This document shows, piece after piece, positions 25,352 through 39,597 of a stretch of DNA of 39,597 bases. This DNA comes from Rhodospirillales bacterium (lineage in GTDB: Bacteria > Pseudomonadota > Alphaproteobacteria > ATCC43930 > CGMCC-115725). The position numbers were made by a program, and so were the translations under genes. The first letter of the stretch is position 1. Each line of letters begins with the position of its first letter. Location: assembly GCA_027315365.1 (NCBI GenBank), contig DAHUYF010000111.1, positions 1-39,597 of the forward strand, in the 5' to 3' direction. The notes beneath the pieces are model-generated. The model did not search any database. It had not been told where the DNA came from and saw nothing but the letters and a program-made list of their open reading frames with translations.

Positions 25352-26158
25352 ATGGCATGGCGCGAGGGACGGCATGGGGCGGCGATCGCGACAGCGCGCG
25401 CGAGCGGCGAGGACCCTCCCGCGACGCTCGAACCGGCGCTGGCCGGCCAGATGGCGTCGTTGCGCCGCTACGCCCGCCGGCTGCTTGCCAATCCTTGCGA
25501 CGCGGAGGATCTCGTGCAGGATTGCCTCGCGCGGGCGCTGTCGCGCGCGCATCTCTGGCGGCCCGGCAGCAATCTCCGCGCCTGGCTTTTCACCATCCTG
25601 CACAACATCCACGTCAACAACCTGCGCGGCCGGGCTCCGCCGGCGGCCGAGGCGGCGGCGGGCGAGGCTGCCGCGGGGCCGCCCGACCAGGAGGTGCGGC
25701 TCGAGCTGCGCGATCTCGCACGCGCTTTGGACGAGGTGCCGCGCGAACAGCGCCAGGCGCTGCTGCTCGTCGGCCTCCAGGGGTTGAGCTATGCCGAGGC
25801 GGCGCAGGTCCAGGGCGTGCCGGTCGGCACCGTCATGTCGCGGCTGGCGCGCGGCCGCTGTGCGCTGCGCCGGCACTGCCCGCGGTCAGGCCGCGTAGCG
25901 GTTGGCGAGAAAGATGCCGAGAAAGATCAACGCCGCGCCGGCGAGGTGAAAAGCCGCGATCTGCTCGCCGAGAAAGGCGTAGGCGAGCATCGCCGAGAAC
26001 AGCGGCATGAGATGGGCGAAGAGACTCGCCCGCGCGGCGCCCAGCGTCGCCACGCCGCGATTCCACCCGAAAAACGCGATCACCGCCGGAAACAGCCCGA
26101 CGTAAAGATAGCCGCCGATCGCCGCGCCGGTCTGCGGCAGCGGGCGGCCCAGCGCTGA
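25352..26158 (+). CDS. EcfG-like ECF sigma factor with a long antisense-encoded tail
   Basis: The sigma-70 region 2 is at about residues 30-95 (SLRRYARRLLANPCDAEDLVQD, then WRPGSNLRAWLFTILHNIHVN). Region 4 is at about 117-170 (LDEVPREQRQALLLVGLQGLSYAEAAQVQGVPVGTVMSRLARGR). It is nearest the EcfG group that drives the general stress response in Alphaproteobacteria; no phyR or nepR is adjacent. A normal member would end near 25885. Here the frame stays open to 26158, adding about 90 residues that are simply the antisense of the convergent DMT gene. The stop was probably lost. The start (ATG 25352, GAGG 11 bases before) is uncertain; GTG 25313 is possible. Confidence 0.8.
   Translation: MAWREGRHGAAIATARASGEDPPATLEPALAGQMASLRRYARRLLANPCDAEDLVQDCLARALSRAHLWRPGSNLRAWLFTILHNIHVNNLRGRAPPAAEAAAGEAAAGPPDQEVRLELRDLARALDEVPREQRQALLLVGLQGLSYAEAAQVQGVPVGTVMSRLARGRCALRRHCPRSGRVAVGEKDAEKDQRRAGEVKSRDLLAEKGVGEHRREQRHEMGEETRPRGAQRRHAAIPPEKRDHRRKQPDVKIAADRRAGLRQRAAQR
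25881..25895. terminator. Hairpin around the DMT stop codon
   Basis: CGCGG (25881-25885) and CCGCG (25891-25895) pair over TCAGG, which holds the stop codon of the minus-strand DMT gene. By comparison with the other convergent ends of this window, the sigma gene's own stop would be expected here but is absent. Confidence 0.4.
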
Positions 26159-26818
26159 CTCCGCGAGATGGAGCGGCAGGACGGTGACGCTGCCGATGGC
26201 GAAGAGCACCCAGAGCAGCGCCACCGGCGACAGCTCGCGCGGCGCGCGGCGCAGCAGCACGGTATAGACCGACCAGGCGGCGACGCCGGCGAGGATCGCG
26301 GCGTCGCCGCGGTTGATCGCGAGATGGAGCAGCCCGCCGATATCGCCGCGCAACACGATGACGAGCACGCCCGCCAGCGACACGGCGACGCCGGCGATCT
26401 GCAGCGGTGCGGCGCGCTCGCGATGGAGGGCGAAGGCGGCGAGGAGGGTCAGCATCGGACCCGCCGAGTTGAGCAGCCCGGCATTGATCGCCGTGGTCCA
26501 TTGCAGGCCGAGATATCCCAGGCTGTTGCAGATGGTGAGGCCGAGCAGGCCCAGTGTCAGCAGGAAGCGCCAATGGGCGAGGATGATCGCGCGCTTGGCG
26601 GCGACCTCGGAGATCGCGAAGGGCGCCACCACGACGCAGGCGATGGTCCAGCGCATCAGGCTGAGGCCGAAGGGCGGCACGATGCCGGCAAGCGCGCGGC
26701 CGACCACCGCGTTTCCCGCCCAGGAGAGCATGGCGACCGTCAGCAGCAGGTAGGCGCTTGCCGCGCCCGCCGGCACCGGTTCCCCCGCACTCGCCGCCCG
26801 CTCGACCATGACGCGCAT
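25886..26818 (-). CDS. DMT-superfamily permease (EamA family)
   Basis: The 310-residue protein has ten hydrophobic helices arranged as two EamA repeats (about 22-150 and 170-305), the plan of drug/metabolite exporters such as YdcZ/RhaT-like and amino-acid metabolite exporters. Typical segments are MLSWAGNAVVGRALAG, GLQWTTAINAGLLNSAGPMLT, and GWNRGVATLGAARASLFAHLMPLFSAMLAYAFLGE. GGGAGAGA abuts the ATG at 26818; a second ATG three codons later is also possible. The substrate is unknown. Its 3' end lies across the sigma gene's extended frame. Confidence 0.92.
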   Translation of the reverse strand: MRVMVERAASAGEPVPAGAASAYLLLTVAMLSWAGNAVVGRALAGIVPPFGLSLMRWTIACVVVAPFAISEVAAKRAIILAHWRFLLTLGLLGLTICNSLGYLGLQWTTAINAGLLNSAGPMLTLLAAFALHRERAAPLQIAGVAVSLAGVLVIVLRGDIGGLLHLAINRGDAAILAGVAAWSVYTVLLRRAPRELSPVALLWVLFAIGSVTVLPLHLAESALGRPLPQTGAAIGGYLYVGLFPAVIAFFGWNRGVATLGAARASLFAHLMPLFSAMLAYAFLGEQIAAFHLAGAALIFLGIFLANRYAA

Positions 26819-26859
26819 TCTCTCCCGGCGGGCGGACGCGCGCCAGCGCCGCCTGGCGC

Positions 26860-28620
26860 TCAGGCGGCGCCGGCGAACTGCGTGTTGTAGAGCTCGGCGA
26901 AGATGCCGCCGCGGTGCAGCAGCTCGGCGAAGCCGCCCTGCTCGGCGATGGCGCCGTCGCGCAGCACCAGGATGAGATCGGCGCTCCGCACGGTGGAGAG
27001 CCGGTGGGCGATGATGAAGGTGGTGCGGCCCTGCGTCAGGCGCGCGATGCCTTCCATGACCAGCGCCTCGGTCTCGACATCGAGCGCCGAGGTCGGCTCG
27101 TCCAGGATCAGGATCGGCGCGTTGCGCAGCATGGCGCGGGCGATGGTGAGGCGCTGCTTCTCGCCTTCCGACAGCGTCGCGCCGTCGCCGAGCACGGTCG
27201 CGTAGCCCTGCGGCAGCGAGGTGATCAGGTCATGGACCCGCGCCAGCCGCGCCGCCTGCTCGATCTCGGCGTCGCTCGCCTCCGGCCGGCCGTAGGCGAT
27301 GTTGTCGCGCACCGAGATCGGGAAGACCAGCGGCGGTTGCAGCACCATGGCGATCTGCCGGCGCAGCGATTTGAGGCGGTAGTCGCGGAGGTCGGCGCCG
27401 TCGATGTGGACGCTGCCGGCGGTGGGATCGAAGAAGCGCGGCAACAATCCCAGCAGCGTCGACTTGCCCGCGCCGGTGGCGCCGACCACCGCGACCTTCG
27501 TGCCCGGCGCGATGGCGAGGTCGATCTGGCGCAGCACCGGCATGTCCGGGCGATAGCGGAAGCTGACTTTGCGCCACTCGACCGCGCCGCGCGCCCCCGC
27601 CGGCGGGAAGTCGCGCGTGCCGTCCTTGAGATCCGCCTCGGTCTCCAGGATCTCGAAGCAGCGCGCGGCGCCGATGCGCGCGCCGGCGATCAACCCCCAG
27701 CTCTGGGTGATCTGGTTCACCGGCACGTAGAGCTGCGCCAGGTAGGAGATGAAGACGACGAGCTGGCCGAGCGAGATCTCGCCGCTGATCACCGAGCGCG
27801 CGCCGGAATAGACCACCAGCGCGGTGCCCAGCGCGATCAGCGTGTTGACCGCGGCGGAATAGACCGTCTGCCAGCTGTAGAGGCGCAGCGTCGCCTTGAG
27901 GCTGGCGCGGCTGGCGCCGATGAAGCGGCCGTATTCCTCTTCCTCCTTGGTGAAGGCCTGCACCACCTTCACCGAGCTCATCGCCCACTGCACCAGCGTG
28001 TAGACCGCGCTCTCGCGCTCGCGCACCTCGCCGGCGATGGCGGTGATGCGGCGGTTGAACACCGCGATCAGCACGAAGAGCGCCGGCACGATGGTGAGCG
28101 ACAGGGCGGTCAGCCACGGGTCCATCGGCAGCAGCACCGCCAGCATGCCGGCGAGCAGCACCAGCGCCGACAGGATCGGCAGCAGCCCGTTCATGATCAT
28201 GGTCTGGACGGCGAAGCTGTCGGCGGTGATCCGGTACATCAGGTCGCCCACCTTCTGCCGGCTGTGGAAGGCGAGCGACAGGCGCTGCAGATGGCCGTAG
28301 AGCGCGCCGCGCAGGTCGTTGACCATGCGCTGGCCGACGCCGATCGTGGTGTAGTTGTGCAGCAGCGCCGTCAGCCCCGAGCCGAGGGTGACGGCGACCA
28401 GGCCGATGCAGGCCGCGACCAGCAGCGGTCCGGCGGCGAGTTGCGACAGGACCGGCGCGTCCACCGGCTTGCCGCCGAGCACATGGTCGATGACGAGCTG
28501 CAGTGGCCAGGGCTTGAGCAGGTCGAAGCCGGCGATGAGAAAGACCTGCAGCAGCGCCCAGGCGAAGCGCCAGCGATAGGGCCGGAGGTAGGGCAGGAAC
28601 TTCCACGCCGAGGCGCCCAT
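26860..28620 (-). CDS. ABC exporter, fused membrane and ATPase domains
   Basis: The 586-residue half-transporter has six membrane helices (about 15-310) and a nucleotide-binding domain: Walker A GATGAGKST, Q-loop MVLQPPLVFP, signature LSEGEKQ (usual LSGGQ), Walker B ILILDEPTSALD, and H-loop AHRL. It would work as a homodimer. The family contains MsbA-type lipid flippases and NdvA-type glucan exporters. It begins 17 bp after the glycosyltransferase gene on the same strand, so its cargo is probably the product of that enzyme. The GAAGG ribosome-binding site is about 10 bases upstream. Confidence 0.93.
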   Translation of the reverse strand: MGASAWKFLPYLRPYRWRFAWALLQVFLIAGFDLLKPWPLQLVIDHVLGGKPVDAPVLSQLAAGPLLVAACIGLVAVTLGSGLTALLHNYTTIGVGQRMVNDLRGALYGHLQRLSLAFHSRQKVGDLMYRITADSFAVQTMIMNGLLPILSALVLLAGMLAVLLPMDPWLTALSLTIVPALFVLIAVFNRRITAIAGEVRERESAVYTLVQWAMSSVKVVQAFTKEEEEYGRFIGASRASLKATLRLYSWQTVYSAAVNTLIALGTALVVYSGARSVISGEISLGQLVVFISYLAQLYVPVNQITQSWGLIAGARIGAARCFEILETEADLKDGTRDFPPAGARGAVEWRKVSFRYRPDMPVLRQIDLAIAPGTKVAVVGATGAGKSTLLGLLPRFFDPTAGSVHIDGADLRDYRLKSLRRQIAMVLQPPLVFPISVRDNIAYGRPEASDAEIEQAARLARVHDLITSLPQGYATVLGDGATLSEGEKQRLTIARAMLRNAPILILDEPTSALDVETEALVMEGIARLTQGRTTFIIAHRLSTVRSADLILVLRDGAIAEQGGFAELLHRGGIFAELYNTQFAGAA

Positions 28621-28637
28621 GGACCGAGCCTTCGTGC

Positions 28638-31229
28638 TCAGGCGGCGCGCGGCAGGTCGGCCGGCGGCGCCGTCTCCGGCGTCGGCGCGACCGGGGTCAC
28701 GCCCTGGCTCTTCGCCACCGTCTCGATGATGCCGTGCATCAGCCGGCCGAATTCGAGCGTGCGGTAGGCGACCAGCGCGCTCTGCAGCAGCCCGATGACG
28801 CCGATCGCCGCCGCCGCCGCCGGTGCGTCGAGGATCAGCGCGGCGGCGGTGGCGACGGCATATCCGCGCAGGATGAAGGCCGAGAGGCGCGACAGCCGCA
28901 TGGTGCAGCGTACGCGCAGCAGCCGCTTCATGCCGCCGTGATTCTCGGTGCAGACCAGCACGAAGGCGCGGCTCCACAGGCCGCGCGCGATCTTGAGATC
29001 CCAGTCGTTCCAGCCCTGATCGGTGACGATGAAGTATTTCTGCGGCGTCAGGAAGCGCATCAGGCCGCCCAGCAGCAGCTCCTTCTCGTCGCCGCGCTCG
29101 CTCCAGTAGGAGAGATAGAAGGCGCGGTCGCGCCAGTCGAGCCGCGCCTTCTGCCGCGCGGCAGGGATCGCGTCGGGCGCGTGCCGATGCGTCCGCATCT
29201 CGCGCAGGCGCCATTTGAGCCGCTCCCAGCCGCGCAGGATCGGGCCGAGATAGATCAGCAGCGCCACCAGCGACCGCGCCTTGAGGCCGGTGAAGCGCTT
29301 GTCGATCGGCGCCTTGAGCGCGCCGTTGATGCACAGCACCCAGGTGGTCAGCAGCGGCACGGTGAGCAGCCACGCCCAGCCGCCGGCGACGATGCCGCCC
29401 AGCGCCAGCAGGATGGCGATGACGTTCCATTCGAAGGAGAGCGGCAGGAAGGCGGCGAGCGAGGAGGACGGCTCGTACATGGTCTGGAACAGGCCGCGGC
29501 CGAAGACGCCGGAATAGATCAGCGGCTTGCGCGACAGCAGCAGCGCCGCCGACAGGTCGCCGTAGATCCGGCCCAGCCATTTCGCCTGGCCGAACAGGTT
29601 GAAGCGGAACGGGTGCTTGGAATAGACCAGCGCCTCCGCCTTGCCGTAGCCGCGCTGCTGGCCGATATAGGCCTTCACCGTGTTGCGGCGGAAATGCCAG
29701 ACCACCGCCGCCGGGCTGAAGCCGATGGTGTAGCCGGCATCCTGGAAACGCCAGCAGATGTCGACATCGTCGCCGGCGGCGCGATAGACCGGATCGAATC
29801 CGCCCATGCGCAGCAGCACGTCGCGGCGGAACGCCATGTTGCAGCCGGCGATGTGCTCGGCCACGTCGTCGGAGAGCAGCACATGGGTCGGGCCGCCCGG
29901 CGACACCGCCACCGCGGCCGGCACCAGGCTGTCCTCGGGCGGCGGGAAATTGGGGCCGCCGCAGGCCATCAGCTGCGCCGTCTCCATCTTGGCGACGAGA
30001 TATGTCAACCAGTCGGGGTCGGCGACGCAGTCGCTGTCGGTATAGGCCACGATCTCGCCGGTGGCGGCGTCGGCGCCGACATTGCGCGCCACCGACAGGC
30101 CCTTGTTGGGCTGGCTGATGATGCGGCAGTAGGCAAAGCGCTGCGAGATCTCCAGCGTGCGGTCGGTCGAGCCGTCATTGACGACGACCACCTCGTAATC
30201 GGGATAGTTGAGCTTTTCCAGCGAGGCGAGGCAGGCCGCCATGGTGCGCTCGGCATTGTAGGCGCACACCACCACCGAGACGCGCGGATAGCGCGCGAGA
30301 GGCGGCGGGATCGGCCCCTGGTAGCGCTCGCGCACCGCGGCGAAGGCCGGCTTGGGGGCGCGCTCGCGGTCGACCAGGCCGAAGGCCCAGTCCTCGACCA
30401 GATGCCCGCCGGTGAACCATTCGTCGGTCCAGGCGAAGACGAAGGCGCCGGCCACGCCCATCTCGAAGGCGGTACGCAGCTGCCAGGACAGGATCCTGGC
30501 CTGCTCCCCGGTGCCCTCGCGCAGCGAGTCGATGCCGAACTCGGTCAGCACCAGCGGCCGGTCGACGGCGAGATTGTGCAGCCGCGAGAGATAGCGGCGG
30601 AAGGCGGGCTCGTCGTGCAGGTAGACGTTGAAGCAGAGGAAATCGGTGAAGTCGATGGTGAGGTATTCGGTCGAGGGAAAGTTGGCGTAGCTGACCAGGC
30701 CTTCGGGATGGATCTCCTTGATCGCGCCGACCAGCTTCTTGAGGAAGGCGCGCACCCGTTCCGGCCCGTGCCAGCGCACCATGTCCGGCGGAATCTCGTT
30801 GCCGACGAGATAGGCCAGGATCGCGGGATGGCGGCCGAGCCCGCGCACCGCCTCGACCACGGTGCGGATGATCTCGGTCTGCACCGGCGCACTGTCGAGA
30901 AAGGTGATGTGCTGCGACCAGGGGATGCCGGCCAGCACCTTGAGCCCCGCCGCCGCGGCGAGGTCGAGCAGCCAGACCGGCGGCACGGTGAAGACGCGCA
31001 GCGTGTTGGCGCCCATCTCGGCCATCAGCCGGAAGTCGCGGGTCACGGTCTCGCGCCCGGGGAACTGCGTGCCGTCCGGGCCGGGCGGGAAGGGGCCGTA
31101 GGTCACGCCCTTGATGAAGAACTTGGCCTCTCCGGCGAAGAAGAACTTGCCCTGGACGCGCAGCGCCGCGCTCTCCGCGCCCGCAGACATTGGCTGGCGT
31201 ACCGCGATGGCGGTCTCGACCGGCTGCAT
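28638..31229 (-). CDS. Glycoside hydrolase-GT2 glycosyltransferase fusion
   Basis: The 863-residue protein has two enzyme halves. Residues about 25-305 form a TIM-barrel glycosidase of GH5/GH2-C type with both catalytic glutamates: Glu145 in LVGNEIPP (acid/base) and Glu230 in VLTEFGIDS (nucleophile). Residues about 314-560 are a family 2 glycosyltransferase: VVCAYNAERTM, VVNDGSTDRT, the DxD-like TDSDC (398-400), AAGDDVDICWR, and QQRGYGKAEAL. Hydrophobic helices follow near 585-660 and 785-820. There is no signal peptide, and no membrane segment between the halves, so the glycosidase should face the cytoplasm and act on the growing or released glycan. The ABC exporter follows after 17 bp. The glycan is unknown. 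Confidence 0.9.
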   Translation of the reverse strand: MQPVETAIAVRQPMSAGAESAALRVQGKFFFAGEAKFFIKGVTYGPFPPGPDGTQFPGRETVTRDFRLMAEMGANTLRVFTVPPVWLLDLAAAAGLKVLAGIPWSQHITFLDSAPVQTEIIRTVVEAVRGLGRHPAILAYLVGNEIPPDMVRWHGPERVRAFLKKLVGAIKEIHPEGLVSYANFPSTEYLTIDFTDFLCFNVYLHDEPAFRRYLSRLHNLAVDRPLVLTEFGIDSLREGTGEQARILSWQLRTAFEMGVAGAFVFAWTDEWFTGGHLVEDWAFGLVDRERAPKPAFAAVRERYQGPIPPPLARYPRVSVVVCAYNAERTMAACLASLEKLNYPDYEVVVVNDGSTDRTLEISQRFAYCRIISQPNKGLSVARNVGADAATGEIVAYTDSDCVADPDWLTYLVAKMETAQLMACGGPNFPPPEDSLVPAAVAVSPGGPTHVLLSDDVAEHIAGCNMAFRRDVLLRMGGFDPVYRAAGDDVDICWRFQDAGYTIGFSPAAVVWHFRRNTVKAYIGQQRGYGKAEALVYSKHPFRFNLFGQAKWLGRIYGDLSAALLLSRKPLIYSGVFGRGLFQTMYEPSSSLAAFLPLSFEWNVIAILLALGGIVAGGWAWLLTVPLLTTWVLCINGALKAPIDKRFTGLKARSLVALLIYLGPILRGWERLKWRLREMRTHRHAPDAIPAARQKARLDWRDRAFYLSYWSERGDEKELLLGGLMRFLTPQKYFIVTDQGWNDWDLKIARGLWSRAFVLVCTENHGGMKRLLRVRCTMRLSRLSAFILRGYAVATAAALILDAPAAAAAIGVIGLLQSALVAYRTLEFGRLMHGIIETVAKSQGVTPVAPTPETAPPADLPRAA

Positions 31230-31400
31230 AATCCCGCTCGACTCCCGTGACGTCTGAGGCTGATGACGACCCGTCCGACCGCGTGAGGGTCGGCCCCCGG
31301 GCGGGCCCGTCGGCTCGCTGCCGGTAGCAGCAGAACGTTGCCTTGGCGCGCCCTATTCCGCGGCCGGGATAGCGCCGCAGAAAGCCCTGGCTGTCAAGCG
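31230..31400 (-). promoter_or_regulatory. Leader between galE and the GH-GT2 gene
   Basis: The 171-bp gap holds a perfect TTGACA at 31397-31392 on the minus strand, but only weak -10 candidates (CGCTAT at 31374-31369). It also has a hairpin CCGACC/GGTCGG (31275-31293) and a GC-rich GGGCCCG/CCCGGG cluster. It may give the GH-GT2/ABC pair its own start of transcription with a structured 5' leader. Confidence 0.3.
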
Positions 31401-32396
31401 TCAGCCGTCGGCCGCCGCGCCGCGGCGGCGATGCCAGGCCCAGGCCGTGGCGATGATGCTGTCGAGGTCGGAGCGGCGGGGGGTCCAGCCCAGCGCCGCC
31501 CGGGCGCGCGCGGCGTCGGCCACCAGCGCCGGCGGGTCGCCGGCCCGCCGCGGCGCCTCGCGCCGAGGGACGCGGCGGCCGGTGATGCGCTCGGCCGCGG
31601 CGATGACCTCGCGCACGGAATGGCCCTCGCCGGTGGCGAGGTTGAGCGCGAGGCTGTCGCCGCCGCGCTCGAGATGGCCGAGCGCCAGCACATGCGCCGC
31701 GGCGAGGTCGTCGACATGGATGTAGTCGCGTATGGCGCTGCCGTCGGGTGTCGGATAATCGGTGCCGTAGATGTCGATCTGCGCCCGCCGGCCCAGCGCC
31801 GCATCGAGGATCAGCGGGATGAGATGCGTCTCGGGATCGTGCGCCTCGCCGATCTCGCCTTCGGCATCGGCGCCGGCGGCGTTGAAATAGCGCAGCGAGA
31901 CATGCCGCAGCCCGTGCGCCACGCCCTCCCAGTGGAGCAGACGCTCGACCATCAGCTTGCTCTCGCCATAGGGATTGACCGGGCGCTGCGGCATGTCCTC
32001 GCGGATCGGCACGCTCTCCGGCACGCCATAGGTGGCGCAGGTCGAGGAGAAGACCAGCCGGCGCACCCCGGTTTCGCGCATGGCGTCGAGGAGCGCGAGG
32101 CTGTTAACCACGTTGTTGGCGAAATAGCGCTCGGGGGCGGTCATGGACTCCCCGACATAGGCGAAGGCGGCGAAATGCATCACCGCCTCGACGGCAAAGC
32201 GCCGCAGCGTCGCCGCCACCAGCGTCCGGTCGCCGACATCGCCCTCGACCAGCGGCCCCCAGCGCACCGCCTCGCGATGGCCGTAGACCAGGTTGTCGAG
32301 GACCACCGGGGCATAGCCCGCCCGGGCGAGCGCCTTGGCGGCATGGCTGCCGATATAGCCGGCGCCGCCGGTCACTAGGATGGTGGCGTGTTTCAT
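31401..32396 (-). CDS. galE: UDP-glucose 4-epimerase
   Basis: The 331-residue extended short-chain dehydrogenase interconverts UDP-glucose and UDP-galactose. TGGAGYIGSHAAKAL (9-23) binds NAD. The catalytic SSTCATYG and NPYGESK (Tyr and Lys) are present, and LRYFNAAGAD, IRDYIHVDDLAAAH and NLATGEG are GalE hallmarks. The start is ATG 32396. No Shine-Dalgarno sequence is visible before it, which is unusual next to its neighbours and lies exactly where base composition changes. Being upstream of the GH-GT2 and ABC genes on the same strand, it may supply UDP-galactose to that module. Confidence 0.93.
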   Translation of the reverse strand: MKHATILVTGGAGYIGSHAAKALARAGYAPVVLDNLVYGHREAVRWGPLVEGDVGDRTLVAATLRRFAVEAVMHFAAFAYVGESMTAPERYFANNVVNSLALLDAMRETGVRRLVFSSTCATYGVPESVPIREDMPQRPVNPYGESKLMVERLLHWEGVAHGLRHVSLRYFNAAGADAEGEIGEAHDPETHLIPLILDAALGRRAQIDIYGTDYPTPDGSAIRDYIHVDDLAAAHVLALGHLERGGDSLALNLATGEGHSVREVIAAAERITGRRVPRREAPRRAGDPPALVADAARARAALGWTPRRSDLDSIIATAWAWHRRRGAAADG

Positions 32397-32478
32397 GCAA
32401 AATGGGGGTACGTTGAGGTGGGAGGAATGGCAGCGCAAGAGCTGGCCGGCGATGATAAACAAAACGAGGAGCAGCCAC
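32397..32478. other. Gap at the compositional boundary
   Basis: This 82-bp gap separates the divergent galE and srkA genes. Left of it glycine is coded mostly by GGC; right of it GGG is about as common. It has no clear promoter for galE and no tRNA, integrase or repeat that would mark a natural insertion. The srkA ribosome-binding site (GAGGAG) is its only clear element. Confidence 0.5.
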
Positions 32479-33471
32479 GTGACGCCTTTGGCGCCTGGGG
32501 AGCAGCCCTTCGCCGGGCTCTCGCCCGAGCGGGTGCTCGATGCGGCGAGCTTCGCCGGGCTCGAGCCCGACGGGCGCCTCTTCGCCCTGAACAGCTACGA
32601 GAACCGCGTCTACCAGCTCGGGGGCGCTCAGGGGATGCTCGTCCTGAAGTTCTACCGTCCGGCGCGCTGGAGCGATGCGCAGATCCTCGAGGAGCACCGC
32701 TTCGCCGCCGAGCTCGCCGCCGCCGAGCTGCAGGTGGCCGCCCCCCTGGCGATCGGCGGTGAGACGCTGCTGAAGCACCGGGAGTTTCGCTTCGCGGCCT
32801 TTCCGTACCTGCGCGGCTCGGCCCCGGAGCTCGATGCGCCCGAGGCCCGGGAGATGCTCGGGCGGGCCCTCGCGCGGGTGCATCAGGTGGGCGCGCGGCG
32901 CTCGTTCGAGCATCGGCCGCAGATCGGGATCGAGCGGCTCGGGGCCGAGGCGCGCTCGCAGGTGCTCGCGGCGGATCTTCTGCCGCAGGCGCTGAAGGAG
33001 CAGTACGCGCGGGTGAGCGGCCAGCTCCTCGAGCGCATCCGGCGCGCCTACCACGAGGCGGGCCCGCACGGGCGCGTGCGCCTGCACGGGGACTGCCACC
33101 TCGGCAACCTCCTCTGGAACGAGCATGGACCGATCTTCGTCGATCTGGACGACTGCGCGCTGGGTCCCCGTATCCAGGACCTGTGGATGCTGCTGTCCGG
33201 TCCGCCCGCGGATCAGCAGGCCCAGTGGGCGGCGCTCTCAAGCGGCTATCAGCAGTTCGCCGACCTCGATTTTCACGAGCTGCTCCTGATCGAGCCGCTG
33301 CGGGGGCTGCGGATGCTGCACCACGCGGCCTGGGTGTGTCACCGGTGGGCGGATCCGGCGTTCCCGAGAGCCTTTCCCTGGTTCGGCGAGGGGCGTTACT
33401 GGGAGGGCTACCTCGGGGACCTGCGCGAGCAGATGGCGGCGATCGATGAGCCGCCGCTGCTCACGAGGTGA
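32479..33471 (+). CDS. srkA: SrkA-type stress response serine/threonine kinase
   Basis: The 330-residue protein belongs to the aminoglycoside-phosphotransferase-fold kinases of the YihE/RdoA/SrkA group, which in E. coli counters MazF-linked cell death under stress. Conserved parts are FALNSYENRVYQLGG and VLKFYRPARWSDAQILEEH (nucleotide lobe with catalytic Lys), the catalytic loop VRLHGDCHLGNLLW, the metal site IFVDLDDCALGPRIQDLWM, and RWADPAFPRAFPWF near the end. The frame is open further upstream. I take GTG 32479, with CGAGGAG seven bases before it, since the length then equals the E. coli protein (328). It opens the second compositional block. Confidence 0.92.
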   Translation: MTPLAPGEQPFAGLSPERVLDAASFAGLEPDGRLFALNSYENRVYQLGGAQGMLVLKFYRPARWSDAQILEEHRFAAELAAAELQVAAPLAIGGETLLKHREFRFAAFPYLRGSAPELDAPEAREMLGRALARVHQVGARRSFEHRPQIGIERLGAEARSQVLAADLLPQALKEQYARVSGQLLERIRRAYHEAGPHGRVRLHGDCHLGNLLWNEHGPIFVDLDDCALGPRIQDLWMLLSGPPADQQAQWAALSSGYQQFADLDFHELLLIEPLRGLRMLHHAAWVCHRWADPAFPRAFPWFGEGRYWEGYLGDLREQMAAIDEPPLLTR

Positions 33472-37208: not shown

Positions 37209-37348
37209 CCTGCCCGGCCCAGCGCGGCTTTGGGCAAAAAGCGCGGTTTGTGCCCCAAGCTGCGCCCCCTTCGGCGGCGGGACACATCCGGGTGCCTACC
37301 TCTGAGCTACACTACGGCTCTGGGGTTAGAACCCGAGGGTGTCGTGTC

Positions 37349-38503
37349 ATGAGCAGCTCTGCGCCGCCCTTCTCGGTCGGCATCGAAGAAGAATACCTGC
37401 TCGTCAACCTCGACTCGCGCGATGTCGACGAGAACCCTCCCGCGCCGCTCCTCGAGGAGTGCACCCGCCGCTCGGCAGGCCAGGTGAACCCCAGGTTCCT
37501 GCGCAGTCAGCTCGAGGCGAGCACACGGCCCTGCGCCTCGGTGGGGCAGGCCCGGGCGGATCTCGCGCGCCTTCGCGCCATCATCTGCGAGGTGGCCGGC
37601 CGCCACGGCTGCGCCCCGATCGCCGCCTCCACGCACCCTTTCGCCAAATCGACTCGGCAGATCACCACCGAGCGCGAGCAGTACTTCGCGCTCGCGAATG
37701 AGATGCAGGGGGCGGCGCGGCGCCTGATGGTCTGCGGCATGCACGTGCACGTCGGCATCGTCGACGATGACCTGCGCGTCGATCTGATGAACCAGCTGTC
37801 CTACTTCGTGCCCCATCTGCTCGCGCTCTCGTGCTCCTCGCCGTTCTGGGAGGGGGAGCGCACGGGCCTCATGTCGTTTCGGATGACGCTCTTCAACTCC
37901 CTGCCGCGCACGGGACTGCCCGAGCGGTTCACGAGCTTCGCGGAGTTGAAGCGCCATCTGGACATGCTGATCAGGAACGGGGTGATCGAGGATGCGGGCA
38001 AGATGTGGTGGGACGTGCGCCCGAACCCGCACCACCCGGCGCTCGAGGTGCGGGTGATGGACAGCTGCACCAGCATCGATGATGCGGCCTGCCTCGCGGC
38101 GCTCATCGTCTCGCTGGCGCGGCGCCTGTATCGCCTGAAGCTCGAGAACCGTACCTGGCGGCTTTATCCGAACATGCTCATCGCCGAGAACCGCTGGCGC
38201 GCCATGCGCTATGGCGTGGAAGGGGAGCTGCTGGACCTCGCGCACGGGCAGCTCGTCGCCTTTCCGCAGCTCGTGAAGGAGTTGATCGAGCTCGTGCGCG
38301 AGGATGCCGCCGAGCTCGGCTGCCTGCGCGAGCTCGAGCACTTGGACACCATCCTCCTTCACGGCACGAGCGCCCACCGGCAGATCAGGATGTACGAGGA
38401 GGCGCGCGCCGCCGGCGCGAGCGCCCGGGAGGCGCTGCAGGCGGTCGTCGACTTCCTCATCCGGGAGACGCAGGCGCACCTCGCTGGCGCGGCGCCGGAG
38501 TAG
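37349..38503 (+). CDS. ybdK: YbdK-type carboxylate-amine ligase (GCS2 family)
   Basis: The 384-residue enzyme belongs to glutamate-cysteine ligase family 2. E. coli YbdK has weak gamma-glutamylcysteine ligase activity, and its true substrate is unknown. Family signs are the N-terminal FSVGIEEEYLLVN (ATP/Mg site), FLRSQLEASTRPCASV, MVCGMHVHVGI, the central GKMWWDVRPNPHHPALEVRVMDSCTS, and LYPNMLIAENRWRAMRYG. Its length is near that of E. coli YbdK (372). ATG 37349 has GAGGG about 10 bases upstream. It converges with the potassium channel gene. Confidence 0.9.
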   Translation: MSSSAPPFSVGIEEEYLLVNLDSRDVDENPPAPLLEECTRRSAGQVNPRFLRSQLEASTRPCASVGQARADLARLRAIICEVAGRHGCAPIAASTHPFAKSTRQITTEREQYFALANEMQGAARRLMVCGMHVHVGIVDDDLRVDLMNQLSYFVPHLLALSCSSPFWEGERTGLMSFRMTLFNSLPRTGLPERFTSFAELKRHLDMLIRNGVIEDAGKMWWDVRPNPHHPALEVRVMDSCTSIDDAACLAALIVSLARRLYRLKLENRTWRLYPNMLIAENRWRAMRYGVEGELLDLAHGQLVAFPQLVKELIELVREDAAELGCLRELEHLDTILLHGTSAHRQIRMYEEARAAGASAREALQAVVDFLIRETQAHLAGAAPE

Positions 38504-38610: not shown

Positions 38611-39522
38611 TCAGCTTGCGCGCGCGGCGGCGGTGTCGCTCGGCAGATCCGGCAGGGGCTGCACGTCGTGGAACTTCGAGTAGTCGAAGCGATCGATGCC
38701 GTCCTCGCCCGACATGAAGATGTCCGCAAAGGTGTGGTTCCAGCGGATCGCGGCGGCGTGATACTCCTGGCGCGACATCAGCATCTGGCCGGTCGTCTCA
38801 TCGATCCCGCCGATGGTCAGGAGCAGGAACGCTCGGCTCGCCTGAAGGGACTCGAAGGTGGCGCCGGAGAAGGGACTCGCCTCATCGATGACGTGCATCA
38901 GGCTCCAGCCGAAGAGGAACACGGGCTGCTCGCTGCGGCGCAGCGGCAGGTCGTAGATGCGCCGGATCCGATAACCCTCCACCGTCTGCTCATCGCGGAT
39001 GAAGCGCAGCTGCGCCGAAGCCTCCATGATGACGTTCTGCCGCTCGTTGGCGGCGCGCAGCATCAGCGTCGGCCTGCCGTCGAACTGCCTGATCACCGCG
39101 TGCCGGGCGAAGAGGATGCGCGCGGTCGGCCGCGAGAAGCGCGCGAACATCATGCCGGTGATGAGCGCGAGGCTCATCATCCCGGTGAAGATCTCCACCG
39201 AGGCGATCAGGTGCGCGTAGACCGTCTGCGGGTGCATGTCCCCATAGCCCACCGTCGCCAGCGTCTCCACGCTGAAGAAGAACCGGCCCCAGTAGCCGGC
39301 GGGATTGAGGTTGGCGATGTCCCCGGCCTGAAGCTGGTAGGCCGCCGCGAAGAGCAGGTTGAAGAGCACGAAGAAGCCGGCATAGCTCAGGAACAGCCGC
39401 GGCCAGGTCAGGGTCATGAAGAGGTGATACAGATCGCGCCACGTGCGCCGCGGCAGGCCCTGGGTGAGCACCTGGCGGCCGTTCAGGGTGGAGCGGCGGA
39501 TGAAGGGACGGTTGCTGGGCAC
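38611..39522 (-). CDS. KirBac-type inward-rectifier potassium channel
   Basis: The 303-residue protein has two membrane helices flanking the pore with selectivity filter TVGYGD, then a beta-rich cytoplasmic domain of the Kir type (SRPTARILFARHAVIRQFDGRPTLMLRAANER, IYDLPLRRSEQPVFLFGWSLMHVID, RQEYHAAAIRWNHTFADIF). Four subunits form a K+ channel in the inner membrane, gated by ligands or lipids. The start is uncertain: GTG 39522 gives an N terminus like KirBac proteins, while TTG 39564 adds 14 residues; neither has a clear ribosome-binding site. The remaining bases to the window end show nothing else. Confidence 0.88.
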   Translation of the reverse strand: MPSNRPFIRRSTLNGRQVLTQGLPRRTWRDLYHLFMTLTWPRLFLSYAGFFVLFNLLFAAAYQLQAGDIANLNPAGYWGRFFFSVETLATVGYGDMHPQTVYAHLIASVEIFTGMMSLALITGMMFARFSRPTARILFARHAVIRQFDGRPTLMLRAANERQNVIMEASAQLRFIRDEQTVEGYRIRRIYDLPLRRSEQPVFLFGWSLMHVIDEASPFSGATFESLQASRAFLLLTIGGIDETTGQMLMSRQEYHAAAIRWNHTFADIFMSGEDGIDRFDYSKFHDVQPLPDLPSDTAAARAS

Positions 39523-39597
39523 GGGAGGCAGTTTAGCCGGTGGCCGGATCAGTGCGCCGGGCAATGATGTGGGAAGCCCGGCATGTGCGTCCGGTGA

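Follow-up and report, generated by a model that had tools for sequence, protein, structure and literature searches.

Cyclic beta-1,2-glucan synthase has cytoplasmic soluble domains, and its product is exported via the transporter Cgt, according to the available sections of two papers (PMC10901819, PMC11842490). For the NdvB protein of pseudomonads, transglycosylation and cyclisation have been proposed in the accessible part of PMC10237404. A glycosyltransferase, MftF, is described in sections of PMC7491314 as responsible for oligo-beta-1,4-glucose on mycofactocin, a small molecule. Linear beta-1,3-glucan has been demonstrated to be a substrate of an enzyme of glycoside hydrolase (GH) family 157 (PMC10229575, available in part). 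Here, we analysed a stretch of 39,597 nucleotides from a Rhodospirillales bacterium (contig DAHUYF010000111.1 of assembly GCA_027315365.1; the whole stretch is called the window below), which encodes a protein with a GH domain fused to a family 2 glycosyltransferase (GT2), followed by the gene for an ATP-binding cassette (ABC) exporter. The fusion, its conserved active sites, its predicted topology and the adjacency of the exporter gene were established by computation. By analogy, our best reading is that this system would work like cyclic beta-1,2-glucan synthase and its exporter, built from unrelated parts.

The main elements of the locus, with the evidence for each, are as follows.
28638-31229, minus strand: GH-GT2 fusion gene, 863 amino acids, the core of the finding (Pfam and homologues)
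30294-31178, minus strand: GH domain, residues 18-312, a clan GH-A-type TIM barrel (Pfam, structural model and fold search)
30795-30797, minus strand: codon of Glu145, acid/base by homology (alignment column)
30540-30542, minus strand: codon of Glu230, nucleophile by homology (alignment column; aligns with E224 of LaGH157)
29595-30293, minus strand: GT2 domain, residues 313-545 (Pfam and alignment columns)
29313-29435, minus strand: first membrane hairpin, residues 599-639, predicted (hydropathy and model)
28878-29156, minus strand: small alpha/beta domain, residues 692-784 (model and genome profile search)
26860-28620, minus strand: half-size type IV ABC exporter, 586 amino acids (Pfam, motifs and adjacency)
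31401-32396, minus strand: galE, UDP-glucose 4-epimerase, 331 amino acids (TIGR01179 profile)

An earlier note, made from the sequence alone, had described galE, the fusion and a half-size ABC exporter as consecutive genes on one strand, and the gene coordinates agree with it. They are transcribed from the minus strand in the order galE, fusion, ABC exporter and then an EamA transporter gene, with intergenic gaps of 171, 17 and 41 bases, respectively. The exporter starts with the ATG at 28620, 17 bases past the stop of the fusion, as the same note had it; the interval it gave for the unit (28638-32396) takes in galE and the fusion and leaves out the ABC gene. Tight coupling is limited to the fusion and the exporter, with galE lying 171 bases away.

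We propose a glycan system that builds, remodels and exports from the cytosol, and in the version with a free oligosaccharide this proposal appears to us evenly balanced between right and wrong. At the inner membrane face, the membrane-bound GT2 would use a UDP-sugar to assemble a short chain of beta-linked sugars. Before export, the retaining-type barrel fused to it, placed on that side too, would transglycosylate the chain (cyclising, re-linking or branching it) or trim it, and the ABC exporter encoded just behind the fusion would carry the finished oligosaccharide out. Donors would be supplied in a lineage-dependent manner by galE and, in some other genomes, by UDP-glucose dehydrogenase (UGD) and UDP-xylose synthase (UXS). 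A GH that retains a complete active site where the chain is made, in one protein with a glycosyltransferase and frequently followed by an exporter gene, implies processing prior to export; within the free-oligosaccharide version, the analogy would make transglycosylation somewhat likelier than trimming. We infer a common substrate of the GT2 and the barrel, the direction of transport and the nature of the product.

The first 240 residues of the fusion matched the Pfam profiles GH2_C (27.4 bits, cut-off 21) and GH72 (27.1 bits, cut-off 25.9), and a row-by-row Pfam scan of homologues at E ≤ 1e-3 found GH2_C in all 64 and GH72 in 56 of them. Over the whole fusion, the Pfam matches at E ≤ 0.1 were confined to GT2-type, GT21, GT7C and GH2_C/GH72 profiles. 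Thus, of the GH5/GH2-C type assigned in the earlier note, the GH2_C part is supported and the GH5 part is not, the Pfam cellulase profile giving no match in the fusion at E ≤ 0.1 and none in the 64 homologue rows at E ≤ 1e-3. GH17 was likewise absent from the Pfam matches of the fusion (E ≤ 0.1) and of the 64 rows. No GH2 accessory domains (N-terminal sugar-binding or immunoglobulin-like) were among the Pfam matches of the fusion, the barrel of which starts near residue 20.

The catalytic pair named beforehand, Glu145 and Glu230, was correctly positioned (in the contexts NE145 and TE230). In an alignment covering 111 loci (113 before the repeats L141 and L143 were dropped), the first column holds Glu in all 106 rows with a letter (5 of 111 rows gapped) and the second in all 108 (3 of 111 gapped). 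On this invariance of both glutamates, an inactive barrel that only binds was rejected. The invariance would also be expected if the GH merely hydrolysed stalled or wrong chains, as quality control or turnover, without shaping the product, and enzymes of GH157 and GH2 usually hydrolyse. Nevertheless, the fusion is kept across phyla, and the evenly drawn class sample described below has no complete member without a long frame, which suggests that the barrel acts on every chain; we therefore regard a purely hydrolytic role as improbable.

Modelled alone with AlphaFold2, the GH domain reached a predicted local distance difference test score (pLDDT) of 93.8. Its closest solved barrel in profile searches was LaGH157 (E 6e-22), followed by a galacturonidase (4e-15) and then other GH2 enzymes, with GH72 beta-1,3-glucanosyltransferases (Gas2 and its kin) and GH158 further down at about 1e-8 to 1e-7. 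LaGH157 was also the best fold match (Foldseek E 3e-17; Z 32.3 over 290 residues, root-mean-square deviation 2.4); other LaGH157 entries scored Z 30.2-30.3, and GH2 galacturonidase and glucuronidases Z 30-31. Glu230 aligns with E224 of LaGH157, the residue mutated in PDB entry 9g4n according to the entry title. In the profile alignment with galacturonidase 6ncw, F283 of the fusion is placed at the lysine of an N-N-K-G stretch, and its column holds Phe in 109 of 109 rows. In these enzymes an NxK motif binds the uronate; if this stretch is that motif, the alignment indicates that the fusion family is without NxK. A usual GH2 glucuronidase was ruled out by F283 at the NxK lysine together with the missing accessory domains. 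GH158 enzymes act on beta-1,3-glucan, and because GH157, GH158 and GH72 have this glucan as a common substrate, beta-1,3-glucan is a reasonable but unproven guess.

The Pfam GT2 profiles begin at residue 315 of the fusion, and this domain carries D352, D398/D400, D487/D488 and a QQxxYG motif at 524-529. D352 is kept in 109 of 109 rows with a letter, D398 and D400 in 111 of 111, D487 and D488 in 109 of 109, and Q524-Q525 and Y528-G529 in 108 of 108. Since the catalytic columns are invariant across the 111 loci (rows with a letter), both catalytic centres are, to judge from the alignments, under strong constraint. The QxxRW motif of BcsA-type GT2 enzymes, which marks the BcsA-like processive synthases, is not present in the alignment rows, where QQxxYG stands instead. 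Solved-structure relatives of the GT2 include chondroitin synthase.

The top NCBIfam match of the window GT2 was MftF (TIGR03965; 159.2 bits, below the cut-off of 280), and this profile matched 25 of 25 GT2 rows at E ≤ 1e-10. All seven matches in plasmid records were to the GT2 domain only, without a GH, and two of the seven are annotated mftF. This relationship would suit the glycosylation of a small molecule, in which an MftF-like GT2 would build an oligosaccharide on an aglycone, much as MftF makes its glucan on mycofactocin in the part of PMC7491314 that is available, the GH would trim it and the ABC exporter would export the conjugate. We give such a system little probability, as the MftF score (159 bits) falls short of the cut-off and no peptide-maturase family match was found among the neighbours scanned.

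The barrel ahead of the GT2 in one chain, as first described from the sequence, was recovered by Pfam and the model and is conserved among the homologues. A prediction of the full-chain structure, suggested at the same time, gave a pLDDT of 85.8 and a predicted template modelling score (pTM) of 0.80 with AlphaFold2, and the junction of GH and GT2, a short linker, is well defined (pLDDT 96-97 for residues 301-320). In fold searches with the full model, most of the listed rows matched the GH domain, and some were GT2 enzymes. Membrane-range hydropathy peaks of the window protein start at about residue 597, after the GT2, besides a marginal peak (1.51-1.59) at 82-102 within the folded barrel, and six further family members showed no membrane-range peak before about residue 576. 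Because hydropathy revealed no hydrophobic segment parting the GH from the GT2, the GH is predicted to be cytosolic, with barrel and GT2 on the same side of the membrane. The cytoplasmic placement claimed in the earlier note is consistent with this, neither hydropathy nor the model giving a sign of an outside position, and a periplasmic GH was set aside on hydropathy and the model only.

Helices were modelled at 599-615, 617-639, 781-799 and 803-841, corresponding to about four membrane helices, and a long helix at 649-680 may lie along the membrane. This small predicted number, together with the missing QxxRW motif, would argue against an export channel formed by the fusion itself. The small domain at 692-784 sits between two membrane hairpins and has no Pfam match; its Asp, Glu and Arg columns are invariant in 25 rows, and in 41 related genomes it gave 19 matches, one in each of 19 genomes and all at the fusion.

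In the neighbourhood survey, each locus was placed in a group manually, according to its record title or the centre of the search, and fragments of one gene in one assembly were counted separately (e.g. L050 and L065 of isolate RYN_450). Exporters were counted at loci with at least 1 kb downstream of the fusion and galE at those with at least 1.2 kb upstream. This strict rule omits L026, where an ABC gene is visible within less than 1 kb (the looser exporter total is 68 of 98), and three loci with less than 1.2 kb upstream at which galE is visible; L077 was scored as lacking the ABC gene by the gap rule, although an overlapping ABC frame is there. An ABC exporter is encoded directly downstream of the fusion at 67 of 97 testable loci, namely 39 of 39 alphaproteobacterial, 12 of 12 delta/desulfobacterial, 9 of 11 acidobacterial, 4 of 28 verrucomicrobial, 3 of 5 other (4 counting L077) and 0 of 2 cyanobacterial loci, the downstream sequence of both the latter being just 1.3-1.5 kb long. 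We saw the arrangement again in a second sample, taken evenly across one class and three phyla: among the testable loci of this sample alone, the ABC gene follows at 9 of 9 alphaproteobacterial (two of which repeat L025 and L035), 3 of 3 desulfobacterial, 8 of 10 acidobacterial and 4 of 8 verrucomicrobial loci, with the centre genomes (one without the ABC gene) excluded. As the same order recurs across phyla, chance neighbours were rejected.

The exporter of the window comprises ABC_membrane and ABC_tran domains with Walker A, signature and Walker B motifs; in an alignment of 65 neighbouring exporters, the signature column is gapped in 5 and Walker B in 6. Its signature reads LSEGEKQR, not LSGGQ, and this exact form is common to 28 of the 65. 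Distances between exporters and between fusions were correlated (Mantel r 0.93, 65 pairs, with 0 of 999 permutations as high), and on a quick tree with several long branches, where L077 was set as ABC-bearing, the ABC label changed 8 times compared with 29.1 for shuffled labels. The tree and the Mantel result would fit long co-inheritance, an interaction of the fusion with the exporter being unproven.

The best NCBIfam matches of the exporter were MsbA_rel (451 bits, cut-off 780) and MsbA (421 bits, cut-off 602), both below cut-off. They are among the points in favour of a glycolipid system, in which the GT2 would act on a lipid or polyprenyl phosphate, the GH would edit lipid-bound glycans of the inner leaflet or transfer sugars between them, with the ABC protein serving as a flippase of the MsbA/PglK kind. 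The few membrane helices of the fusion point the same way, as does a GT87-like glycosyltransferase encoded directly downstream at two ABC-less verrucomicrobial loci, one match lying just under and one over the cut-off. However, exporters of this class transport many kinds of cargo, Pfam recognised no lipid-binding domain, and the barrel, whose nearest relatives cut glucans and glycosides, suits a chain no less well. We hold the glycolipid system to be possible but doubtful.

Several points weigh against the export of a remodelled free oligosaccharide. A directly downstream ABC gene is missing at 24 of 28 verrucomicrobial, 2 of 11 acidobacterial and 2 of 2 cyanobacterial loci, where export may be absent or may proceed via another pump; the expectation in the earlier note of an exporter beside the fusion is thus borne out at the 67 loci given above, without being obligatory. 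Glucan-exporter models scored far below their cut-offs with the window exporter (NF010178, 375.3 versus 733; TIGR01192, 292.9 versus 585.4), and vertical inheritance in common would likewise produce the Mantel correlation. GH157 (Z 30-32) and GH2 (Z about 30-31) are barely separable on the modelled fold, which would thus hardly point to one substrate, and the conserved glutamates would be explained by hydrolysis no less than by transfer. In addition, the closest relative of the GT2, MftF, acts on a small molecule (PMC7491314, sections available). We also considered a more specific form of the proposal, in which a clan GH-A transglycosylase and an MftF-like GT2 would constitute an independently evolved counterpart of cyclic glucan synthase, with a cyclic or re-linked product made in the cytosol and a co-inherited ABC exporter; this form we hold to be rather unlikely. 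If true, the system would solve, in a second and unrelated way, the problem that cyclic beta-1,2-glucan synthase solves, and it would predict an exported glycan, periplasmic or secreted and not yet isolated, widespread in several phyla.

A homologue scan found 79 distinct loci encoding relatives (best 80 of 115); patterns from the window protein were used, which biases this set toward its kin. Of the fusions bearing a record title, those closest to the window protein belong to uncultured Alphaproteobacteria and Rhodospirillales, and at E ≤ 1e-60 the window protein was matched in 31 of 61 genomes, all within the 37 of its own family. In evenly drawn genome samples, with phylum names taken from the titles of the centre loci and centre genomes included in the counts, GH-domain matches at E ≤ 1e-20 were found in 14 of 385 genomes of the class sample, 5 of 198 of the desulfobacterial, 14 of 199 of the acidobacterial (including weak matches in G775 and G781), 9 of 145 of the verrucomicrobial and 1 of 146 of the cyanobacterial sample (the centre itself). 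All 13 complete GH matches of the class sample lie in frames of 858-1213 amino acids, and the two remaining ones, in G065, are pieces on two contigs. A distant relative without a GT2 is encoded in G775 by a frame of 561 amino acids (L163:7670-9352, minus strand; E 8.6e-22), which has no Pfam match at E ≤ 1e-4 and is a possible unfused cousin of the barrel; L163, as distant and unfused, and G781, as partial with two stops, were excluded from the neighbour counts. Carriers outside metagenomes include Solidesulfovibrio aerotolerans DSM 16695, with the ABC gene, and Chthoniobacter flavus Ellin428, without an adjoining one, and make the system testable.

The GalE protein scored 433.1 bits with TIGR01179 (NCBIfam), above the family threshold of 262.3. 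Upstream of the fusion, galE was found at 36 of 36 alphaproteobacterial loci and at 4 of 60 outside this group (delta/desulfobacterial 2 of 12, acidobacterial 1 of 11, other 1 of 5, verrucomicrobial 0 of 30 and cyanobacterial 0 of 2). It is mainly an alphaproteobacterial partner of the fusion; the three-gene unit claimed at first therefore holds for the coupling of fusion and exporter and not for galE as a general part. The source assembly (4.97 Mb, 215 contigs) is judged 99% complete, and because its second-best galE-like match is only 35% identical, the window galE may serve other pathways as well.

UXS, matching UDP-glucuronate decarboxylase 2b69 (E 3e-124), lies within the fetched stretch at 13 of 25 alphaproteobacterial loci with at least 5 kb upstream, 12 of them with UGD too, at 3 of 7 delta/desulfobacterial loci (none with both) and at 1 of 3 other loci (with both); among acidobacterial (0 of 8), verrucomicrobial (0 of 20) and cyanobacterial (0 of 2) loci of this length it was not found. 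Adding shorter loci with a visible gene, the UXS/UGD counts become 16 of 29 alphaproteobacterial, 4 of 8 delta/desulfobacterial, 2 of 4 other and 1 of 9 acidobacterial loci, and UGD and UXS occur in other orders at L076, L079 and L081. The source genome is without a close copy of either, the best matches being 34% (UGD) and 36% (UXS) identical. In view of the patchy group counts and the missing close copy, UGD/UXS were rejected as a general part of the unit. As these genes are near about half of the alphaproteobacterial loci and have no close copy here, a pentose or uronate is likely a decoration in some lineages and not part of the core.

The fullest cluster seen, L147 (17.5 kb), carries UXS, galE, the fusion, a pair of ABC genes and a pair of GT2 genes in this order on one strand and looks like a biosynthesis-and-export cluster, the ABC pair of which may be a two-gene (heterodimeric) exporter. 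In L039, from Synechococcus, the fusion has no ABC gene within 1.5 kb downstream; a divergent sugar epimerase/dehydratase and an acyltransferase are also encoded there (frames noted at L039:8782-9909, minus strand, and L039:12622-13719, plus strand), which may hint at an acylated glycan.

In the source genome an APH-family kinase (32455-33468, plus strand) is divergent from galE, whereas in L026, of the same genus, UGD and UXS take its place, indicating that the donor genes flanking the unit vary within the genus. Downstream of the exporter lies one further gene.
25886-26818, minus strand: EamA-family transporter (Pfam), outside the conserved unit
Among the other loci of the survey, an EamA transporter above 60 bits was found only in L007. 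A scan of 25800-32600 gave no sigma-70-like promoter (0.4 expected) and four terminator-like sites (1.8 expected), none of them in the galE/fusion or fusion/ABC gap. Elsewhere, the window encodes a GCS2 (glutamate-cysteine ligase family 2) protein at 37250-38500 (plus strand) and an inward-rectifier potassium channel at 38614-39564 (minus strand; IRK_C and Ion_trans_2 matches).

No recognisable description of the fusion or the operon was found in the open-access literature, subscription journals being mostly outside this coverage, and the absence of a characterised product for the architecture, as the earlier note had assumed, holds within the same literature. The pseudomonad NdvB 'Orphan' (GH17-GT2) resembles the fusion in having a GH barrel ahead of a GT2 in a single chain. 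However, in the available part of PMC10237404 its GH17 domain carries a signal peptide and is placed in the periplasm by modelling, with membrane helices separating it from a BcsA-like GT2, whereas the fusion has no GH17 and is predicted to have no membrane helices between GH and GT2; the text of that paper contains none of the terms 'ABC transporter', 'NdvA' and 'export'. With another GH family, modelled on the opposite side of the membrane, NdvB proved a poor relative by plan, contrary to the first suggestion. MftF is the nearest named family of the GT2, but it has 470 amino acids and a single predicted membrane helix (PMC7491314, sections available), and the GT2 of the fusion scores under its curated cut-off. 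LaGH157 (PDB 9fz9, 9g5g and 9g4n), of the endo-beta-1,3-glucanase family GH157, is the top match of the GH domain in sequence and fold, at about 22% identity, and its 537-residue chain is matched by the GH domain of the fusion only. The GH2 beta-glucuronidases and beta-galacturonidases share a TIM barrel of about equal fold score, but the fusion differs from them in having no accessory domains and in carrying F283 at the position of the NxK lysine.

The closest likeness in plan is to Cgs/NdvB of the Rhizobiaceae, the partner exporter of which is Cgt, also named NdvA. The fusion gave no Pfam match at E ≤ 0.1 to GT84, GH189 or GH94 modules or to a phosphorylase profile; Cgs consists of GT84, a GH189-type cyclase and GH94, whereas the fusion has a GH2_C/GH72-like barrel first and then a GT2. 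By its recognisable modules, which are unrelated, the fusion is not a cyclic beta-1,2-glucan synthase by membership. Cgs, as described in the available sections of the papers on it, is a single membrane protein whose soluble domains, for glycosyl transfer and for glycan remodelling, all face the cytoplasm and whose product an ABC transporter exports, and the fusion likewise has a GH and a glycosyltransferase in one chain, predicted to be cytosolic, with a partner ABC exporter.

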